From a virus, in IMG/VR virus record IMGVR_UViG_3300021432_000008, positions 1-64,000 of that record: a stretch of 64,000 nt of DNA; one strand, written 5' to 3'. Below are positions 7,883 through 63,026 of this stretch, piece after piece (the stretch's first letter is position 1; each line of letters begins with the position of its first letter). The notes under the pieces are model-generated. The model searched no databases and was not told where the DNA came from. It worked only from the letters and a program-made list of their open reading frames with translations. A program made the translations under genes and the position numbers.

Positions 7883-8415
7883 GTCTCCGCCTCCACCGCC
7901 TGTCTCGCATCGTTCGTAATCTCCACCCTCCCGCCGGTCTTCAGGAACCATTCGTGTGCCAGCAGCGCCCCCATTGACCCCACCGGTATGTCCAGCTCCT
8001 CCCTCAGTTCGCCCACCGTCGCCGGGCCGTTGCGGAGGATGAAGCGCACCACGTCCATGCGGCGCTGGTCCTTCGCCACCTTGGCCGGCTGGCGGCAGCC
8101 GTTGGCGCGTGCGGGCTCCGGCAGCGGCGTCTCCTCCTCCGGCGCCGGCATCGTCAGACCTGGCACCGGCAGCACGGCCGGCGTGGACAGCGGCACGGGC
8201 AGGCGTGCGGGGCTGTACGTCGACTTGCCGTTGGGTGGCGGGGCCGGTGGTCGTGCCGCCTGCACGGCCTTCAGCTTGTCGCACTCGTCGATCAGCCGTT
8301 GCCGCCAGCGGAAGAGGTTGGCGATTTCGCGGTCGAGGTCCTCGATGGTCATCGTGGCCACTGCCGCCGCGATGGCGTCGTCCGCCTGCTGTAGTGCGTC
8401 GATGATGCTGCTCAT
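7879..8415 (-). CDS. Coiled-coil protein with C-terminal winged helix
   Basis: 178 residues. Residues 1-55 form a helical coil (ALQQADDAIAAAVATM, then LDREIANLFRWRQRLIDE). A Pro-rich linker follows. Residues about 120-175 (RRMDVVRFILRNGPATVGEL, then FLKTGGRVEIT) resemble a winged-helix DNA-binding fold. The gene overlaps the methyltransferase stop by four bases, so it is co-translated with it. Confidence 0.6.
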   Translation of the reverse strand: MSSIIDALQQADDAIAAAVATMTIEDLDREIANLFRWRQRLIDECDKLKAVQAARPPAPPPNGKSTYSPARLPVPLSTPAVLPVPGLTMPAPEEETPLPEPARANGCRQPAKVAKDQRRMDVVRFILRNGPATVGELREELDIPVGSMGALLAHEWFLKTGGRVEITNDARQAVEAET

Positions 8416-9191
8416 TTCTCTGCCTTTCCGTCGCTGATGGCGAACAAGTCTCCTTGCCGCACGGCGGGCGCGGTCTTCTCGAACAGGGCGAAGTCGTCGA
8501 ACGCCTGATCGATACGGCGACAGGCGATGTCGAAGTAGCGTTTCTCCAGTTCCACGCCGACGAACGGGCGCCCGGTCTGAATGCAAGCAACGCCAGTTGT
8601 GCCGGAACCCATGAAGGGGTCCAAGACCGTTCCACCGGCAAGCGTCTTTTCAAGTAGAAGACCCACTAACTCGACAGGCTTTTCGGCTGGATGCTCGCGG
8701 TCATCTTGAAGAACGCCGCGAAGACGAATCACGTCCCCATCGCCGGTCGGAATCCGTGGAGTGTCTTCCTGCTCTCCCCATGCGATGATCTCGTGCTGGT
8801 GCCGCCAAGTGTAACCGTTGAAGGCAATCAATCGGTCCCAGATCAGAGGACGGACGTACTTGCAGTGCGGATACATGCCCGTGAAGGCAATCGGGTAGCT
8901 CTGCCCATCGCAGAACAGATACCATGTTCCAGTTGGCTTCAGCGCCCGCGATGCACCTGCGATGAACAGGCGAAAAAAGTTCTCAAGGATGGACGTGTCG
9001 CTAATCGACCGGCGTGGCCTTCCCTCTGATCGCGTTCCGCAGTAGTGAGCGGCAGGCTGGAAGTACGGCGGGTCCGTCACCACCGCATCGACGCACCCCG
9101 CCGGCAGCATGGGCAGCAGCGCAAGACTATCCGCGTTGAACAGCTTCACGTTGCCGCGTTCATAGTCAGGCTTGGGCAGTCCGTCGCTCAT
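8412..9191 (-). CDS. DNA methyltransferase, beta-class arrangement (N6-adenine or N4-cytosine)
   Basis: 259 residues. Catalytic motif IV is DPPY at 40-43. HPAEKP lies near 170, and the S-adenosylmethionine-binding DPFMGSGTTG at about 191-200. Motif IV before the FxGxG loop marks the beta class, which methylates the exocyclic amino group of adenine or cytosine. No restriction partner is adjacent, so it is probably an orphan phage enzyme protecting phage DNA or marking it for regulation. The specificity cannot be read. Confidence 0.9.
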   Translation of the reverse strand: MSDGLPKPDYERGNVKLFNADSLALLPMLPAGCVDAVVTDPPYFQPAAHYCGTRSEGRPRRSISDTSILENFFRLFIAGASRALKPTGTWYLFCDGQSYPIAFTGMYPHCKYVRPLIWDRLIAFNGYTWRHQHEIIAWGEQEDTPRIPTGDGDVIRLRGVLQDDREHPAEKPVELVGLLLEKTLAGGTVLDPFMGSGTTGVACIQTGRPFVGVELEKRYFDIACRRIDQAFDDFALFEKTAPAVRQGDLFAISDGKAEK

Positions 9192-26626: not shown

Positions 26627-27394
26627 TCACTGCTTCGTCAGCGTTTCCGCAGGGAAGCCGCCCGTCTCCGTCTTGCCGTAGGTGTTGACCCACTGGCAGA
26701 AGACCTGTCGGGTATGCGTGCCGACGTCGATCACCGTCATCGTCGGGCCGCCGGAGTTGAGCATCACCTTGTCACCGGGCTTGAAGGGGCATTCCTTGGG
26801 ATCTGGCGGCAATAACCGGCGAATCCTCTCCGGAATGAACCCTGAAACCACATACGAGGTGACATTGTCGCCGTGCCCCGCGATGGACCACTGCCAGGGA
26901 TAACCTTCCGGCGAGTTCGCCGGAACGGAAGGCTGCGCCGACGCACCGTCTGGCGGAGTGGACTGCGTTCCGACGATCGCCTTGATCTGCTCGCGAACCT
27001 TTTCCTTCGTCAAGCCCATGTCGTCGAGTACCGCGAAGGCAATGTCGTCGTGCAGCAGCCCCAGAAGAATGTGCTCCGTGCCGATATGGCCGTGGTTCAG
27101 CCCGCGGGCTTCCCTGACGGCGTTCTCGATGACGAGCCGGGCGTTCGGCGTCTGGGGCAATTTGCCCATCGTCACCATGTCGGGACCGGGACGAATCCGG
27201 CTCTCCACCCCAACACGAATCTTGCGCAGGTCAACGTCCAGGTTCTTCAGGACGTTGGCGGCGACCCCAGAACCTTCCTTGATCAGCCCGAGCAGGATGT
27301 GCTCGGGGGCGATGTATTCGTGGTTGAAGCGCTGTGCCTCCTGGTTGGCCAGCTGCATCGTCTTGCGGGCACGATCGGAAAAGCGTTCGTACAA
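26627..27394 (-). CDS. ClpC-type N-domain (Clp repeats) fused to a DUF2158-like domain
   Basis: 255 residues, TTG start at 27394 with GGAGAGAAGCC upstream. Residues 1-145 carry two Clp N repeats (MYERFSDRARKTMQLANQEA, HEYIAPEHILLGLIKEG, GHIGTEHILLGLLHDD), the adaptor-docking domain of ClpC/ClpA. No AAA+ module follows. Instead residues about 203-255 (FKPGDKVMLNSGGPTMTVID, then QVFCQWVN) match DUF2158/YodC. A phage ClpC N-domain without ATPase could soak up Clp adaptors or substrates. Its location among tail genes could also mean a virion role. Confidence 0.8.
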   Translation of the reverse strand: MYERFSDRARKTMQLANQEAQRFNHEYIAPEHILLGLIKEGSGVAANVLKNLDVDLRKIRVGVESRIRPGPDMVTMGKLPQTPNARLVIENAVREARGLNHGHIGTEHILLGLLHDDIAFAVLDDMGLTKEKVREQIKAIVGTQSTPPDGASAQPSVPANSPEGYPWQWSIAGHGDNVTSYVVSGFIPERIRRLLPPDPKECPFKPGDKVMLNSGGPTMTVIDVGTHTRQVFCQWVNTYGKTETGGFPAETLTKQ

Positions 27395-54785: not shown

Positions 54786-55045
54786 CGCAAGAACCTCCAC
54801 CAGAGAAACAGTTGTATCGCGGCCCCAGCGAGCGCACCGGCCAGTAACCCCGGCCATGCCCTCCGCCAGAGGAGCCTAAGGGTGGATTCCGTGGGCTTAA
54901 CGAAGTGTGGCACGTAGCCCTTCGGCGGTGCGTCCGGTATCGGTCGCGGTGGTATCATCACTGCCGGTCCTCTCAGCGGCGCAATCGCTCCCTCGGGTTT
55001 GTCGATGCGCTCGCCCTTGGCGTTCACGTAGACTGGCTGGCTCAT
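54782..55045 (-). CDS. Small protein with C-terminal membrane anchor
   Basis: 87 residues from ATG 55045, which overlaps the portal gene stop (ATGA). Pro-rich soluble part, then a single membrane span (WPGLLAGALAGAAIQLFLWW) at residues about 65-84. A tail-anchored protein made with the portal; a role in lysis or host membrane is possible. Confidence 0.5.
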   Translation of the reverse strand: MSQPVYVNAKGERIDKPEGAIAPLRGPAVMIPPRPIPDAPPKGYVPHFVKPTESTLRLLWRRAWPGLLAGALAGAAIQLFLWWRFLR

Positions 55046-58000
55046 TGAAATATCCCCCACTTTTTGAACACGTCGCTGCACTTCGGAAAGCGCTTCACGA
55101 TCTCCGCTCGGTCGGTGTCCGTCCCGTGGACCAGCCGGAAGAACTCCGCGAAGCCCTCACGCGGCAGCGTCTTCGCGTAGTCCGACAGCCCGCCCGGCTT
55201 GATCTCGCTCTGGTACGCCTCCTGCCACTCAGGCGAAGACGAGATCTCGTACTCCGGCCCATCGACGGCATGACCGAACTCGTGGGCGTACAGTTCGCGC
55301 GCCGGCTGGCCTCTTGGCGTATCGCCGTCGAGGTGGAGGCGCTTCCGCGAGCCGTCGTAACCGCCGCCAGCGATCTTGCCGGCGAACGCTGCCAGCTGCG
55401 AGGGCGGCAGGGCGCCCTTCGTGAGATCCTGACACGAGCCATAGAAGCGATACTCTCTTGCACCTTTGTTGAATCGCTCAAGAGCCTTCGCGGGCAGGGC
55501 GTGAAGGACCTGGCTTGCAGTAGCCCGGCACGCCTGTCGCTTCGTTTCGCCAAGAGCGGCATGGCGGTTGAGGGCATCGTCCAGGCGGAAGTGGGCGGCT
55601 TCCAGCGAATGGGCGCGGGAGGGAGAGGGCTTGTCGGGTTCCGGCTCGGCGGCGGGCTTTGTGGGCTCGGTGCGCTTCATCAGGTCCATCATGGAGGAGA
55701 GGGAGCCAGCGCCTTCCGCGACGGGGTCAACCTCTCCTTTCGGCTTCCACTCGCTTTCGGTTTCTCCTCCGGTCGGCGCCTTCTCGTACCCGGCTTTCGT
55801 CAGGGCATGGGCATAGATGCGTCGGCGTCTTTCCTCTGTCACGCCGTAGTGGATGCCCAGGCCGGCTTTTGCTGCCTTGCCCAGAAACGTCTGGAACTTG
55901 TGCATCAGATCAACAGTGCCCGGTTGAAGTTTCTTATTGGTCACGTCATACGAGGCATCCTGGGTGTATTGGATATACACCGCCTTATCTTGCGGCAGGA
56001 ATTCCAGGCCAAGTTTACGACCAGCTTCCTCGACAATCACGTCATCGTCCCCGGAGTCGGGACTGACAGACTCGCCGAACACTTCCTTCACGGCAGACTG
56101 GAATGCCCGTCGTGCTTCCTTCCTCTCGGCACGGCGTTTCTCCTTTTCCTCCTCCGTCCCCGACCGCCGTTTTTCCTTGTCGGCCTTCCGGCTATCGATG
56201 GACTGCTTCAGTTCCTTCCACCGCGCCATGGCGGCGTCAGCCTTCGCAATCGCATCGTCGGGCTGAGCCTTCTGCTCCACCTTCGCCTTCTCTTCCGGCG
56301 TCGCCTTCTCCATCACGTCGCCGGGGATGAACTCGCCGCCCGTGTAGAACGTACCGCCAATCGTGACACCACCCGCCGGAGCATGGTGCGCCGCGAACCG
56401 CAGCACCATCTCGTCAGCCAGCTCGCCCTTGCCGCACTTGCGCAAGTGGTTCACCACTCTGGCCAGCCGGGCGTGACGCAGGCTGACGGGGGCGAAGGGC
56501 GGAACCGCTGGCCGCATGGATGCGGAAGGGGCAGCGCTCGATGAAGGGGTGACGGCGCCGGAGTCGGGGGCCTCGGTGGGAGGCTCCACGACCACGTCCG
56601 GCTTCACCGTGTCGTCTTGCTCCCGTGCATACCGCAGTGCCTCCGTCGCCTCCCGCATGGCCCGCAGAGCGTCGAGGAAGTCGCCCCCGCCTCCGGGCTG
56701 GCCGTTGGGCTGTTCGTCTCCTGGCGCCCCCTCTGGCGATGGTGAGCCTCCACCACCTCCCATCAATGCCGCCAGAGGGTCAGCCCCACCGCCAGCCCCC
56801 GGCGGCCCACCGCCGGGGGCACCGCCCGCGGGCTGCGGCGGTTGCACCAGCTCGTCGCCGTCCGCCGGCTTGCCGAACCCAGCCGCGTCGCGCATGTCGT
56901 CGGCGCGGGTGGGAATGCCCATGTCCACGAGTGTCTTGCCCGAAGTGACCTTCTCTTGGTCCATCTTCGAGCCGTGATCGTAGACAAACGACACGGGGAA
57001 GTCGCTTATCGTCTCGGGAAAGCTGTACTCCTGCATGATGCTGACCATGCCGGGGTTGTACGTGTCCCCCGTCATGCTCATGGCGTGCCAGGCTGCATCC
57101 TGGCGAGCAATGGCTTCTTTGGTGTCCTGCTGAAACTCCGAAGACGACTTGTTGCTGTGCCCATCGGCCGACGTGGCACTGGCGCTGCCCTCCTGCCCCA
57201 CGACGTAGCGCTCCATCTGCTTGTCGAAATACTCCACCAGCTTGATCATCTCCCCCGCGCCGGCCGTGGGCACCTCCAGACGCTCCAGCGTGGTACTTCG
57301 CTCCTGTCCGGGGATGACGGGAACGAAGAGGTTGGCGCGGTCCGACTGGTTCTTGGCCGCCGTCTGTGCGGCGTTCAGCGCTTCCACGTTGCCGGACGGG
57401 TAGGTCCAGATGTTGACGCCCAGCCCTATGCGGTCATAGAACTCAGCAACCCTGCCAAGGAAGTCTTTCTTGAGGAAGTCGCACCAGAACAGGTGCGAGC
57501 GGATGCCGACGCCGTGGATGGCGTCCCCCTGCATCGAGCCCAGGAAGAAGTCGCGGTCCTCCATGAACTGGTAGTGCAAGAGGAAACGCTTCCGCCATGT
57601 TCCGCGCAGGGAGAGTGCCCTTCCCACGGTCGTGTTGACGATGGAAGCGTTGGGGTCGAGGTGTCTCAACTCGTTCGTGTAGGCGCTGTTCACGAGGACG
57701 TAGGGGGTGCCGTCGAGCTGGTGGCCGATCTTGTCTCCCTGGACCTCCCACGCCTGCAAGACGCTGAGAGCCTTTCGCTTCTTCGCTCCCGTGCCGAACT
57801 GCTGATCCGGGTTGGGCAGCCCCATCTCGTCGAGGCGGGCGCCGTAGGCTTTCTCCGCTCCACGATCGGCGGGATCTTCAAGCATGCGCTCGCGGAGGTA
57901 GCGGAGCACGGGGTCAATGCGCATCATGGCCTGTGCAGCAGCGGGAGCGGGTGCCGGCTGCTGCTGGGTAGGCTGTTTGCCCTTGTCCTTCTTCGCGTCG

Positions 58001-58575
58001 AAGTCGTCGCGGACATCCGTCTTGCCCCACTCGATCTGCACGCCCTGCCGGCCGAACCAGATGGCCCAGTAGTGCGACGGGATGATCCGCGGCATCTGGG
58101 TGACGGCCTTCATCTGGCGCGTGAGGCTGTCCTTGACATGGACCTGCCAGGGGTCCTTCTCGTCGGGCACTTCCAGGTGCCACTTGCGGGACGATACCGC
58201 CAGCATGCGCTCCTGAAGCAAGCCGCGAAGGTAGACGTCGTTGAGCATGTCAACAGCGTCCTTGCGGCCGTGGCGCATCGCCTCATCGTACATGGTCTGC
58301 CAGAACGTGTAGTCGCCGCCCGTGGTTCTCGCGACGAAGAGGTAGCCGCCCGGCAGCGCCAGGCCGCCGGGGTGGGCGTTGCCGTCTGGGACCTTGCGAT
58401 CGGAGCGGATGGGCCGGCCCATGCCGTCCACCAGCTGGGGCGCTCCGCCTGCTGAGATGTGCTGGAGCGCCATGTCGGAGAAGGCGTTGCCCACGGACAC
58501 CTTGCCCTGCGGGTAGATGCCCGGCTCCGTGAAGGAGTGCGTCGGCTGCTGGAGTGTCGAGCGGGAGCGGGCCAT
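55042..58575 (-). CDS. Portal protein (DUF935-like) fused to a C-terminal zinc metalloprotease-like domain
   Basis: 1177 residues. Residues 1-620 follow the DUF935/Mu-type portal (LPGGYLFVARTTGGDYTFWQ, then YLRERM, NVWTYPSGN-like NIWTYPSGNVEA, FVPVIPG). Portals form the dodecameric gate for DNA. A Gly/Pro linker, an IGGTFYTGGEFIPGD segment near 760 and a charged coil follow. Near the C-terminus is ELYAHEFGHAVDG (HExxH at 1098-1102), then REGFAEFF (Glu-1140 or 1144), a gluzincin-type zinc site. The fusion could process head proteins or act on host proteins after ejection. Activity is unproven. Confidence 0.75.
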   Translation of the reverse strand: MARSRSTLQQPTHSFTEPGIYPQGKVSVGNAFSDMALQHISAGGAPQLVDGMGRPIRSDRKVPDGNAHPGGLALPGGYLFVARTTGGDYTFWQTMYDEAMRHGRKDAVDMLNDVYLRGLLQERMLAVSSRKWHLEVPDEKDPWQVHVKDSLTRQMKAVTQMPRIIPSHYWAIWFGRQGVQIEWGKTDVRDDFDAKKDKGKQPTQQQPAPAPAAAQAMMRIDPVLRYLRERMLEDPADRGAEKAYGARLDEMGLPNPDQQFGTGAKKRKALSVLQAWEVQGDKIGHQLDGTPYVLVNSAYTNELRHLDPNASIVNTTVGRALSLRGTWRKRFLLHYQFMEDRDFFLGSMQGDAIHGVGIRSHLFWCDFLKKDFLGRVAEFYDRIGLGVNIWTYPSGNVEALNAAQTAAKNQSDRANLFVPVIPGQERSTTLERLEVPTAGAGEMIKLVEYFDKQMERYVVGQEGSASATSADGHSNKSSSEFQQDTKEAIARQDAAWHAMSMTGDTYNPGMVSIMQEYSFPETISDFPVSFVYDHGSKMDQEKVTSGKTLVDMGIPTRADDMRDAAGFGKPADGDELVQPPQPAGGAPGGGPPGAGGGADPLAALMGGGGGSPSPEGAPGDEQPNGQPGGGGDFLDALRAMREATEALRYAREQDDTVKPDVVVEPPTEAPDSGAVTPSSSAAPSASMRPAVPPFAPVSLRHARLARVVNHLRKCGKGELADEMVLRFAAHHAPAGGVTIGGTFYTGGEFIPGDVMEKATPEEKAKVEQKAQPDDAIAKADAAMARWKELKQSIDSRKADKEKRRSGTEEEKEKRRAERKEARRAFQSAVKEVFGESVSPDSGDDDVIVEEAGRKLGLEFLPQDKAVYIQYTQDASYDVTNKKLQPGTVDLMHKFQTFLGKAAKAGLGIHYGVTEERRRRIYAHALTKAGYEKAPTGGETESEWKPKGEVDPVAEGAGSLSSMMDLMKRTEPTKPAAEPEPDKPSPSRAHSLEAAHFRLDDALNRHAALGETKRQACRATASQVLHALPAKALERFNKGAREYRFYGSCQDLTKGALPPSQLAAFAGKIAGGGYDGSRKRLHLDGDTPRGQPARELYAHEFGHAVDGPEYEISSSPEWQEAYQSEIKPGGLSDYAKTLPREGFAEFFRLVHGTDTDRAEIVKRFPKCSDVFKKWGIFQ
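56508..56547 (-). repeat. Dispersed hairpin element, copy e (inside the portal gene)
   Basis: Exact reverse complement of 48203-48242 over 40 bases. In the portal frame it encodes part of the low-complexity linker (SSAAPSASMRPA), whereas copy d encodes RMDAEGAALDEG in its own gene. Encoding unrelated peptides shows that DNA, not protein, is conserved. Confidence 0.8.
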
Positions 58576-58578
58576 TGG

Positions 58579-59379
58579 TTAATCTCCGGCGATGGCAGCC
58601 TGGGTGCGGCCGAACGAAACGCAGGCGGCAACCGCGTCTGCCTCGGCCTCTTCGCGCGTGTCGTAAGTGCGGAAAGCGCCAGCCTCGTTTGCCGTTCCTG
58701 TCGTCAGCAAACGGTAGATCACGGTCGGGAGGACGGCCTCGGCGTCGTCGCCTCCCATGAACCAGCGGACGGGGACCGCCCTGTTGTCCATGCCCGACGA
58801 TGCCGGATAGCCGGAAGGGCTCCGATCCGACAGCCTCACTTCCTCGATCGGGTTGTGCCGGAATAGCTCCCCCGCCGTCTCCATGAACGTCGCCAGCGGC
58901 AGGGTGACAGCGGCGACGAAGCCGCGGCGGAAGAAGCAGTATGGCTCTTTCGACAGCTGCTCAATAGCCTCCTTGCGCTTACCCCAATACATCGAGTGCG
59001 ACCGCCAATCTTGTATCGACGATGTATGGTGGACTCTGTCCACCAGTGCCTCAGTTCGCCTGAGCAGATCGCAGTAAGCACAATCCCCGCACGGATGGGG
59101 TTTCTGGTCCGGCCACACCTGCCGAAACGCCTTTGCCCTGCTGCACTCGTCGCCCAGCCGCGCCATCTCCAGCCCCAGCCGGATGAACTCCGCCCTCTCC
59201 GGCTGCCCGTTGTCCTCCAGCCAGTCGCACAGGATCAGGCGCGGAGCATCGTCCGCCGTGTCAGCGCAGATGCCCGCGATGAACGCCTGACAGACGGGAT
59301 CGGCGCACCAGGCGTCGCGAGCGGCGCGAATGCTCCGGTCCATTGAGCCAGCCAGGTTCTTCAGTGCGTCGATGGCCAC
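58579..59379 (-). CDS. TIGR02996-type protein
   Basis: 266 residues. AFIAGICADTADDAPRLILC, then DWLEDNGQPERAEFIRLGLE, is the textbook TIGR02996 repeat-companion module found in Gemmataceae. A zinc-like CGDCAYC follows, then FMETAGELFRHNPIEEVRLS, a typical leucine-rich-style host segment. Function unknown, but it is the clearest host-lineage marker in the window. It precedes the portal in the packaging operon. Confidence 0.8.
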   Translation of the reverse strand: MAIDALKNLAGSMDRSIRAARDAWCADPVCQAFIAGICADTADDAPRLILCDWLEDNGQPERAEFIRLGLEMARLGDECSRAKAFRQVWPDQKPHPCGDCAYCDLLRRTEALVDRVHHTSSIQDWRSHSMYWGKRKEAIEQLSKEPYCFFRRGFVAAVTLPLATFMETAGELFRHNPIEEVRLSDRSPSGYPASSGMDNRAVPVRWFMGGDDAEAVLPTVIYRLLTTGTANEAGAFRTYDTREEAEADAVAACVSFGRTQAAIAGD

Positions 59380-59713: not shown

Positions 59714-60259
59714 TCATCCGCCATTCCTTCTTGATCCGTCCTTGATCGTTGAAATCTGCTTGGTCGGCACATTATTGACGAGAGCGAGCCCGTGACGAGC
59801 AAGCTTGTCAATAACCTCATTGAGGCAGGTATATCCGAAGTTCTTCAAAGCAAGGAGGTCATCGGCACTTTTGGAAACCAAATCATCAACAGTGATAATG
59901 CCCATCCGGTTGAACGCTTTTCTGGCCCGAACAGAGAACGGACCAACAGAAGCAACGTGGCGTTGGTCATCTCCAATTGCCGCGCGAGCCACATCGGCAA
60001 GCCTCTCCCTGATACTAGCCTCACGCCGAATCGCTTCCGGTGGCCAGTGCCAGGTTCCAACGGCGCTGCCTTGGTCGAACGGCACATTCTGCAACGCCAC
60101 AGGCGGCCCGAAACGGCAGAACACGGTCAGGCTCATCCGTGACTCCATCCAGTGGTCGATGCCGGTGATGATCGCGGGCAACGGGTCCTTGAACCGCTCG
60201 TTCGGCTGATCGCTGTTCGGCATGTAGCGGACGATGGTTCCGATGGTTGGCAGTGGCAT
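59714..60259 (-). CDS. Phage protein carrying an RNA polymerase alpha-CTD-like domain
   Basis: 181 residues. Residues 1-90 resemble a recurrent small phage domain (GTIVRYM..., PAIITGIDHW, VGTWHWPPEA). Residues about 105-160 (FSVRARKAFNRMGIITVDDL, then LLALKNFGYTCLNEVIDKL) match the alpha-CTD of bacterial RNA polymerase (SVRA.NCLK..GI.TVGDLV....LL...N.G.KSL.EI...L). The alpha-CTD contacts UP elements and activators. A phage mimic could redirect transcription. It might also be a generic helix-hairpin-helix module. Confidence 0.75.
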   Translation of the reverse strand: MPLPTIGTIVRYMPNSDQPNERFKDPLPAIITGIDHWMESRMSLTVFCRFGPPVALQNVPFDQGSAVGTWHWPPEAIRREASIRERLADVARAAIGDDQRHVASVGPFSVRARKAFNRMGIITVDDLVSKSADDLLALKNFGYTCLNEVIDKLARHGLALVNNVPTKQISTIKDGSRRNGG

Positions 60260-60721: not shown

Positions 60722-62449
60722 TTACCTGATCATGCCGCCGTACTTTGACTGTCGCCCACCCCTTGCTTGATCTGCGTAGCGGAAATGCCCGTCGTCCGAA
60801 ACGCGCGGCGATGGGGCGGCGGGCAGGCTGGAGGGAGCCTCGTAGGCGATGGGCGGGGCGTAGGCGAGGTTCAGGGCGTCCATGTCGTCGGGACTGAAGC
60901 CAAGACGTGCCTTCATGACCTGCTTCGGCTCGACCTCACAGTGACCACGGGCGTTGAGCTTCCACATGGGCGCCATCGCCTGCCCGCGCAGCGTCTCCAG
61001 GCTCGTCCGCGTCAGGTGCGACAGGTTGACGCCGAACTTCTTGCACAGGATGGCCGCCTCGAACCACAGCTCGCTCCGAGTATTGTCGTACATCGCCTGG
61101 TTGCGGGCTTGGGCGGAGGCGCGGACAGCAATGAAGTTGTAGGCGGACGCGCCGGCGGGCATCTTCGGATCGCCGCGAAGCGTGCCCGCCACGGTCGCCC
61201 CCATGCCGTCACCGTCATACTTGATGGGCAGTTCTTCGGCTCGCCACTTCGCCGCTTGCGGGTCCTTCAGGGCGTTGGCCTTCTCAGTCCACTCGTTCGC
61301 CAGCTGAATGCACCGCCCGATGGCCTGCGGAATGTCCCAGCCAGAGTGCCGCTCATGGTGCCGGGCGAACTTGCCCCAGCGCAGCACGATGGACGTGTAG
61401 TCGTCTCCCTGAAGGGCAATGTCCCAGCCGATCTGCGGGAGTACGCCCAGCGGGGCGATAAACGGTTCGGCACGGCAGGCGATCTGCCAGAGGTAGTCGC
61501 TCCAGACCCCGTAAAGACCCTGCGAGGGCCAGCAACCCAGGACCTTCGCCTGGAAGAGCGGGCCGGGGTGATACCAGCGGCCAGAGCCGGGTGGCCACTC
61601 GAAGTCTTCGGCCTGTCTCTCCTCGCCGTCAGACAACTCGTCGCACCAGTCCCCTATCCAGCCGTTGACCTGATGGAGCGACACAGCGGCCGGATAGGGT
61701 CTCACCTCTCCCTTCAGTTCCGCGTGGACGTTGGGATGGTCCAGGCACGAAAGGGTAATCGTCTGCCACTTGGGATTGCCGTCCACGTCGCGGGCGTTCT
61801 CCTCGATGTACGCCTGGCTGCTGGTGTCCAGCGGGTTCAGCGTCGAGATAAGGTAATGATTGCCGCCGGGATCGAACATGGAGTCTATGGCACGCCAGAA
61901 CTCTGTCTCGACGGCAACCGATTCGTCGATGATGAAAAGCATGTGCCGACGGTGCCGGCCGTGGAAAGCTGCCTCTTTGAAGGCCGTGTACCCCTTGGCC
62001 CAGTGCTCCTCCGATTCCCAGATGAGCGGCGCCTTCTGCCCGGAGAAGGGCAAGTCCAGGCCGACGCGCTTGGCGAGTGTACGAACTTCCGACCAGAGAA
62101 TGTCCTCGACACTCTCCTTCGTCGGCGCCGTCGTGATGGTCCAGCCCTGCGGGTAGGCGCAGTAGTGCCAGACGATGAGACAGGCATCCCAGAAGCTCTT
62201 GCCGCATGAGTGCCCGCTCTTGACCTGTACGCGGTGTGGCGGACTCATCAGAGCATCGGCGATTCCTTCCTGCTCCTCGGTCGGTTCGACGTGAAGAACC
62301 TCCCGTATGAACGGAATCGGTCTACTCTGGTATTCCGTGAAGTCACTCTGCTGCTGTGCCACCAGCAGGCGCGTCAGTGGGCCCTCGCCCCACTGCGTCC
62401 GCATGGCGTCGTAGCACAGATTCACGAACGTCTGGTCGTAGGCTGTCAA
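60722..62449 (-). CDS. terL: Terminase large subunit
   Basis: 575 residues from TTG 62449 (GGAGAAG upstream), overlapping the small-subunit gene by about 107 bases. Walker A GHSCGKS (79-85) and Walker B LFIIDE (171-176) form the packaging ATPase. The C-terminal nuclease region has GWDIALQGDDYTS, KYDGDGMGATV and DDMDALNLAYA, supplying the acidic residues that cut concatemeric DNA. It docks on the portal and pumps DNA into the prohead. The assignment is secure. Confidence 0.92.
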   Translation of the reverse strand: MTAYDQTFVNLCYDAMRTQWGEGPLTRLLVAQQQSDFTEYQSRPIPFIREVLHVEPTEEQEGIADALMSPPHRVQVKSGHSCGKSFWDACLIVWHYCAYPQGWTITTAPTKESVEDILWSEVRTLAKRVGLDLPFSGQKAPLIWESEEHWAKGYTAFKEAAFHGRHRRHMLFIIDESVAVETEFWRAIDSMFDPGGNHYLISTLNPLDTSSQAYIEENARDVDGNPKWQTITLSCLDHPNVHAELKGEVRPYPAAVSLHQVNGWIGDWCDELSDGEERQAEDFEWPPGSGRWYHPGPLFQAKVLGCWPSQGLYGVWSDYLWQIACRAEPFIAPLGVLPQIGWDIALQGDDYTSIVLRWGKFARHHERHSGWDIPQAIGRCIQLANEWTEKANALKDPQAAKWRAEELPIKYDGDGMGATVAGTLRGDPKMPAGASAYNFIAVRASAQARNQAMYDNTRSELWFEAAILCKKFGVNLSHLTRTSLETLRGQAMAPMWKLNARGHCEVEPKQVMKARLGFSPDDMDALNLAYAPPIAYEAPSSLPAAPSPRVSDDGHFRYADQARGGRQSKYGGMIR

Positions 62450-63026
62450 GGAACTTCTCCAGCATGTCCTTCGCATCCTTGCTGTCAATCAGCCCCGCGT
62501 GCTGCGCCAGCAGCTTCAGGGCAGCGTTTTTGTCCCACAGGCGAATCTTCTGCTTCTTGGCCATCCGACGAAGTTTGCGAGCCGGCTTTACTTTCTTCTT
62601 CGGTCGATCTTCTTCTTTCTGCTCCTCTTGTTCGGGCTCCGGCACGTACTCGAACTCGGCTTCCGTCGAAGAGATCGCTCTGGTGCCGAGCGGGTTGTCT
62701 GGATCGCTGATCCTCCCCTCTTCGTCCACGACGAAGCGGGTAACGTCGCTGGTGGCGATGATCCTTGCCTCGCGAAGAACCTCCCAGTTGCGTATCTTGG
62801 CCTGCTCGATCTGCTCCTGTTCCCCCTTCCGTATGGCCTCCAGAACGTAAGGGTTGGCAAGGATTTCGGATGCTCCGGACTTTACCGCGTCGTAGGTCTT
62901 CCCCTTGTACCCGGCTCTCTTGTAGGCAGCGACGCCGTTCAGGTCGAGAAGGTACTCGAACACGAAACGCCGTTGGCGGTCGGTGAGCCCGTCGTCTGGA
63001 TCGGGTGTAGTTTTCTTGCTTGCCAT
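62343..63026 (-). CDS. terS: Terminase small subunit
   Basis: 227 residues. LTDRQRRFVFEYLLDLNGVA, then AYKRAGYKG and EILANPYVLEAIRKG, is the standard N-terminal signature of phage small terminases (LT.RQ..FV.EYL.D.N...A..RAGY...NP.V). A charged middle (EQEEQKEEDRPKKKVKP) and helical C-terminus follow. It recognises phage DNA and recruits the large subunit. Confidence 0.88.
   Translation of the reverse strand: MASKKTTPDPDDGLTDRQRRFVFEYLLDLNGVAAYKRAGYKGKTYDAVKSGASEILANPYVLEAIRKGEQEQIEQAKIRNWEVLREARIIATSDVTRFVVDEEGRISDPDNPLGTRAISSTEAEFEYVPEPEQEEQKEEDRPKKKVKPARKLRRMAKKQKIRLWDKNAALKLLAQHAGLIDSKDAKDMLEKFLDSLRPDVRESVLRRHADAVGRGPTDAPAGGTAAE

Follow-up and report, generated by a model that had tools for sequence, protein, structure and literature searches.

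A phage packaging-operon gene that joins a common phage domain to an RNA polymerase alpha-CTD

In Escherichia coli, residues R265, N268, C269, G296, K298, S299 and E302 of the RNA polymerase (RNAP) alpha subunit C-terminal domain (alpha-CTD) contact DNA, and positions 259 and 261 contact sigma. Proteins with an alpha-CTD are also known from phages. A viral structure search returned UniProt-named phage proteins with the domain from uncultured Caudovirales, Rhodococcus phage Finch and Mycobacterium phage Mithril. Phage isolates with an alpha-CTD include Bacillus phage Goe8 (Goe8_c00050), Microbacterium phage Mazun (gp26) and Ruegeria phage V16, and in Morganella phage Mecenats66 the alpha-CTD follows a NinX domain. 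One paper annotates a phage ORF with an alpha-CTD (PMC9127768). In Goe8_c00050, Mazun gp26, the Finch protein, the uncultured Caudovirales entries and ORF40 of Erythrobacter phage vB_EliS-L02, the domain is mostly C-terminal and stands without the N-terminal domain of the alpha subunit (alpha-NTD). We found no study of phage alpha-CTD function, or of the viral class that lacks the alpha-NTD, in the open-access literature. An earlier reading of the DNA described here, made from its letters alone (the sequence-only reading), had implied that an alpha-CTD in a phage gene was novel; this was overstated, because UniProt and one paper already annotate such proteins, which are also commoner than was assumed (63 viral contigs, see below). 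What is new is the domain arrangement, in a kind of protein that is already known though unstudied: the five cases above have other N-terminal partners, and the phrog_2293 domain found in our gene occurs in none of them, in the sets examined.

The gene lies in a 64,000-nucleotide stretch (hereafter, the window; positions 1 to 64,000) of the 76,940-base IMG/VR virus record IMGVR_UViG_3300021432_000008. It runs from 60259 to 59714 on the minus strand and encodes 181 amino acids from an ATG with a GGGAG-like ribosome site upstream; the preceding gene is 10 bp away and the next gene 21 bp away. The sequence-only reading had placed an ORF at 59714-60259 in a run of packaging genes, which proved correct, with the strand now added. 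On the same strand, the order is the terminase small subunit (62343-63026 (-); PF03592, E = 2.9e-23), the probable terminase large subunit (60722-62488 (-); PF03237, E = 3.5e-4, 20.7 bits, just below the cut-off of 22), an ORF of 144 amino acids, the alpha-CTD gene, an ORF of 102 amino acids, an ORF with a TIGR02996 domain (58579-59379 (-); E = 6.5e-14) and a Mu-type portal protein with a long C-terminal extension (55042-58575 (-); PF06074, E = 6.8e-27). The TIGR02996 domain served as a host marker: the name of the family refers to Gemmata obscuriglobus and the family was not found in 14 control genomes, so that the host is probably a Gemmata-like planctomycete. The window also contains tyrosine integrase and excisionase genes, which suggests that the phage is temperate. 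No close relatives of the terminase large subunit were found in IMG/VR, and Rfam and tRNA searches gave no match. The extension of the portal (1177 amino acids in all) ends in a HEFGH metalloprotease-like segment, for which the match to a zincin-like family was sub-threshold. The window also has a gene for an N6/N4 DNA methyltransferase (8412-9191 (-)), and a small phage gene at 26627-27394 (-) in which another host-derived module, Clp N-terminal (Clp_N) repeats without the AAA ATPase, is fused to DUF2158.

Residues 108 to 160 of the protein (59780-59938 (-)) form the alpha-CTD-like domain. PF03118 (RNA_pol_A_CTD) matched residues 108 to 154 (E = 9.2e-13), scoring 48.2 bits where the cut-off is 23.8. 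Since NusA also scores with PF03118 (about 20-36 bits), a second test was needed, and we used a local HMM made from genuine RpoA CTDs, with which the protein scored 53.1 bits, and the NusA helix-hairpin-helix (HhH) 19.1 bits; when the same 65 residues were shuffled 5000 times, the highest score was 9.1 bits. The NusA C-terminal HhH also lacks R265 and has GIG in the hairpin where the phage protein has NFG. In the PDB sequence search, all 41 matches at E <= 1 were RNAP alpha. An AlphaFold2 model from an alignment of 33 sequences, which took in four alpha-CTD sequences, had a mean pLDDT of 86.9 and about 94 over the alpha-CTD; an earlier model from the single sequence (pLDDT 38) was unusable. 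The sequence-only reading had named a non-transcriptional HhH domain as the competing identity, but each of the best 50 PDB matches of the model in Foldseek was an RNAP alpha chain or a complex that includes one. Isolated CTDs (e.g. 8y5t) and the CAP-DNA complex 1lb2 superposed on the predicted model at 0.8-0.9 A over 61 residues. A generic HhH or NusA-type domain is thus ruled out by the HMM and structure scores, and sequence profile and predicted fold together identify residues 108 to 160 as a genuine RNAP alpha-CTD. The protein as a whole is not an alpha subunit: where an alpha subunit has its RNAP-assembling N-terminal domain, this protein of only 181 residues has a phrog_2293-type part.

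The phage domain has the same fold as the bacterial alpha-CTD and keeps R265, N294, G296 and E302; it differs in the lack of an alpha-NTD, in the substitutions N268K, C269A, K298T and S299C, and in having V and P at positions 259 and 261. The arginine equivalent to R265 is R111, placed by alignment to the RpoA CTD (codon at 59927-59929 (-)). Thus, three of the seven DNA-contact residues (R265, G296 and E302) are retained and four are changed, and the acidic residues of the 261 determinant, which would face sigma, are gone. Of the DNA-contact Arg and Asn that the sequence-only reading proposed to check, the arginine is there, but the asparagine at 268 is a lysine. We take K268 and T298 to be possible traits of planctomycete RpoA. 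Given the four substitutions, DNA binding by the phage alpha-CTD may be weak.

The N-terminal part was correctly described by the earlier reading as a common phage beta domain. Residues 4 to 75 (60035-60250 (-)), which carry the motif G.IV.Y ... G.W.WPP and end at W.WPP, were assigned with the phrog_2293 profile (E = 1.8e-11) and homologues, and the model has predicted strands at residues 9-12, 27-34, 41-46 and 54-61. Domains of this type are frequent in actinophages; that of Gordonia phage Bakery gp84, for example, is shared with the N-terminal 75-100 residues of our protein. In other phages, the domain is usually stand-alone and ends after W.WPP[RE], without an alpha-CTD: most of the 46 IMG/VR homologues stop a few residues past W.WP[PE], and an alpha-CTD was found in none of them. 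In a viral gene at L035:3001-3642, the same type of N-domain is joined to a Phage_gp49_66 domain, so the N-domain is also a shuffled module. Between the two domains of our protein lies a linker (residues 76-107; 59939-60034 (-)), predicted to be mostly helical (residues 74-98).

The base composition of the gene changes along its length. Third codon positions had a GC content (GC3) of 0.82 over residues 1-78 and of 0.545 over residues 105-181; in 262 equally sized windows from 12 other genes, the mean was 0.806 (sd 0.086, minimum 0.545). The best change point was at residue 66, with positions 57-72 nearly equal, and none of 5000 permutations gave one as strong, indicating a composition break near the end of the N-domain. 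From residue 66 or so up to the stop codon (59714-60064 (-)), the composition is thus foreign (GC3 about 0.53 against 0.81), and total GC in 150-base windows falls to 45% and returns to 61-65% downstream. The position of the seam is approximate, because the best N-domain match reaches residue 100, past the W.WPP end. As the alpha-CTD half is compositionally foreign, we conclude from the sequence that two phage modules were joined fairly recently to form this gene, with the seam visible in the composition. No close relatives of the whole protein were found in IMG/VR, nor was the same fusion found in any other virus there, including the 46 N-domain homologues, and we found no flanking repeats that would account for the entry of the foreign stretch. 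Misassembly or a contaminating rpoA gene is ruled out: the two parts form a single frame in a phage packaging operon, and the composition is normal on both sides.

The sequences nearest to the phage alpha-CTD are two stand-alone viral alpha-CTDs, L018 and L017, with 58% and 52% identity over the domain. Together with L019, which is grouped with L018, they are about 70-75 amino acids long, have no N-domain, and have K268, T298 and KNFGx[TS] in common with our gene; L018 and L017 retain C269 and S299, unlike our gene. L018 lies a few genes away from a terminase-like gene. The donor was likely a stand-alone viral alpha-CTD gene such as these, in a virus with a GC content near 50-52%.

To see how common such domains are, we scanned IMG/VR with a motif and found 63 viral contigs with an alpha-CTD (loci L095-L157; e.g. 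L111:11097-11726, L121:10234-11001 (-) and L100:6207-7049 (-)). The alpha-NTD was absent in all 63 proteins (NTD score <= 1.5 bits, against 286-448 bits for the controls). Because the scan pattern fixes N268, C269 and largely R265, the conservation of these residues among the 63 proves nothing; N294, G296 and E302 were left free, and these were kept in 31, 31 and 34, respectively, of the 35 readable clusters. The proteins formed 36 clusters, of which 10 matched Sigma70_r4 (best E = 7.3e-19), and others matched helix-turn-helix (HTH) families. Host DNA may have been misclassified as viral in some of the 63 contigs, but the missing alpha-NTD speaks against a plain carry-over of rpoA. The proteins of this set may represent a class of transcription regulators in phages. 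We tentatively entertain, as somewhat doubtful, the broader idea that alpha-CTDs without the alpha-NTD form a set of transcription modules, widespread in phages and so far undescribed, that are joined to sigma region 4-like, HTH and phage accessory domains, and that the present gene is a member that would put a phage protein at promoters.

For the present gene, a recent two-module fusion whose alpha-CTD acts as a tether to DNA or to an alpha-CTD-binding factor is a reading that we hold to be evenly balanced between right and wrong. The HhH of the alpha-CTD, with R111, would grip AT-rich DNA by its minor groove, or else bind an alpha-CTD-recognising transcription factor, and the N-terminal domain would thereby be brought to DNA or to promoters. 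The protein would probably be made together with the packaging proteins, and, having no alpha-NTD, it should not be incorporated into RNAP. That other phages join the alpha-CTD to sigma region 4 or HTH, i.e. to DNA-binding partners, counts for a tether; by analogy, the sigma region 4 partners support a transcription role of the module in general, not of this protein in particular.

The sequence-only reading had also suggested competition for UP elements or activators, in which the free alpha-CTD would occupy UP elements or alpha-CTD-binding activators and weaken host promoters. A lone alpha-CTD has a weak affinity for DNA, four of the seven DNA-contact positions are changed and the sigma-contact positions are lost, and the gene sits among packaging genes, whereas phages usually take over the host early. 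The case for UP-element competition is weakened in particular by the residues lost and by the operon setting. We regard such competition as unlikely, even with a genuine alpha-CTD that keeps R265 and with the precedent of T7 Gp5.7, a phage protein that binds both DNA and RNAP and thereby shuts off the host enzyme (PMC5569994). The partial loss of the 265 determinant in an intact fold would also suit a module for docking to proteins, with reduced DNA binding and a transcription factor, sigma, NusA or a phage protein as its partner, and the Spx-alpha-CTD complexes 1z3e and 3gfk, which are among the structural matches, show an alpha-CTD in protein contacts. R265 itself is retained, however, and the acidic residues at 259 and 261 are absent, so that docking, too, seems improbable.

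A role unrelated to transcription, as a general DNA-binding helper for packaging or replication, would fit the position of the gene between terminase and portal and the similar neighbourhood of L018, but what the protein carries is an alpha-CTD, not a generic HhH, and other phages pair this domain with sigma region 4; we think this quite unlikely. Finally, the alpha-CTD might have been gained by illegitimate recombination and be functionless in this protein. The composition has not been ameliorated, no other virus searched in IMG/VR has the fusion, and several determinants are gone, as would be expected of a chance fusion; still, neither the frame nor the domain core is broken, the model has high confidence in the alpha-CTD, the gene spacing is normal and R265, G296 and E302 survive, which makes a chance fusion very improbable. 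A tether that binds DNA or a transcription factor therefore appears plausible from the residues retained and the partners elsewhere, and classic competition for UP elements or sigma less so. In either form, this is a phage gene with a host-polymerase module bolted onto a common phage domain; should the module really bind to promoters or to partners of the alpha-CTD, phages would have in it a route to host transcription without a polymerase of their own. The wider set of 63 contigs makes the question approachable in cultured phages, e.g. Bacillus phage Goe8 and Microbacterium phage Mazun.

Several further matches came from the same searches. Two phage-collection hits (H17 and H18) and a C. difficile plasmid hit (H23), considered as phage or plasmid alpha-CTDs, were rejected as ordinary rpoA operons. 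Such records, L002 (C. difficile plasmid) and L003 and L004 (phage collection), carry ordinary ribosomal-protein/rpoA operons, so that they resemble host DNA that was misassembled or came in as contamination. Among the genome contigs, there was one real RpoA (Acidimicrobiia, L006), and the match in L007 was a chance one inside a TsaD-like protein. A viral HTH protein (L016:8143-8784) has an alpha-CTD with an insertion past the first helix. In genome G013, which is related to the Acidobacteria MAG G008, a frame of 311 amino acids (contig C172:325-819 (-)), separate from RpoA, contains tandem alpha-CTD matches of 62.6 and 56.7 bits.
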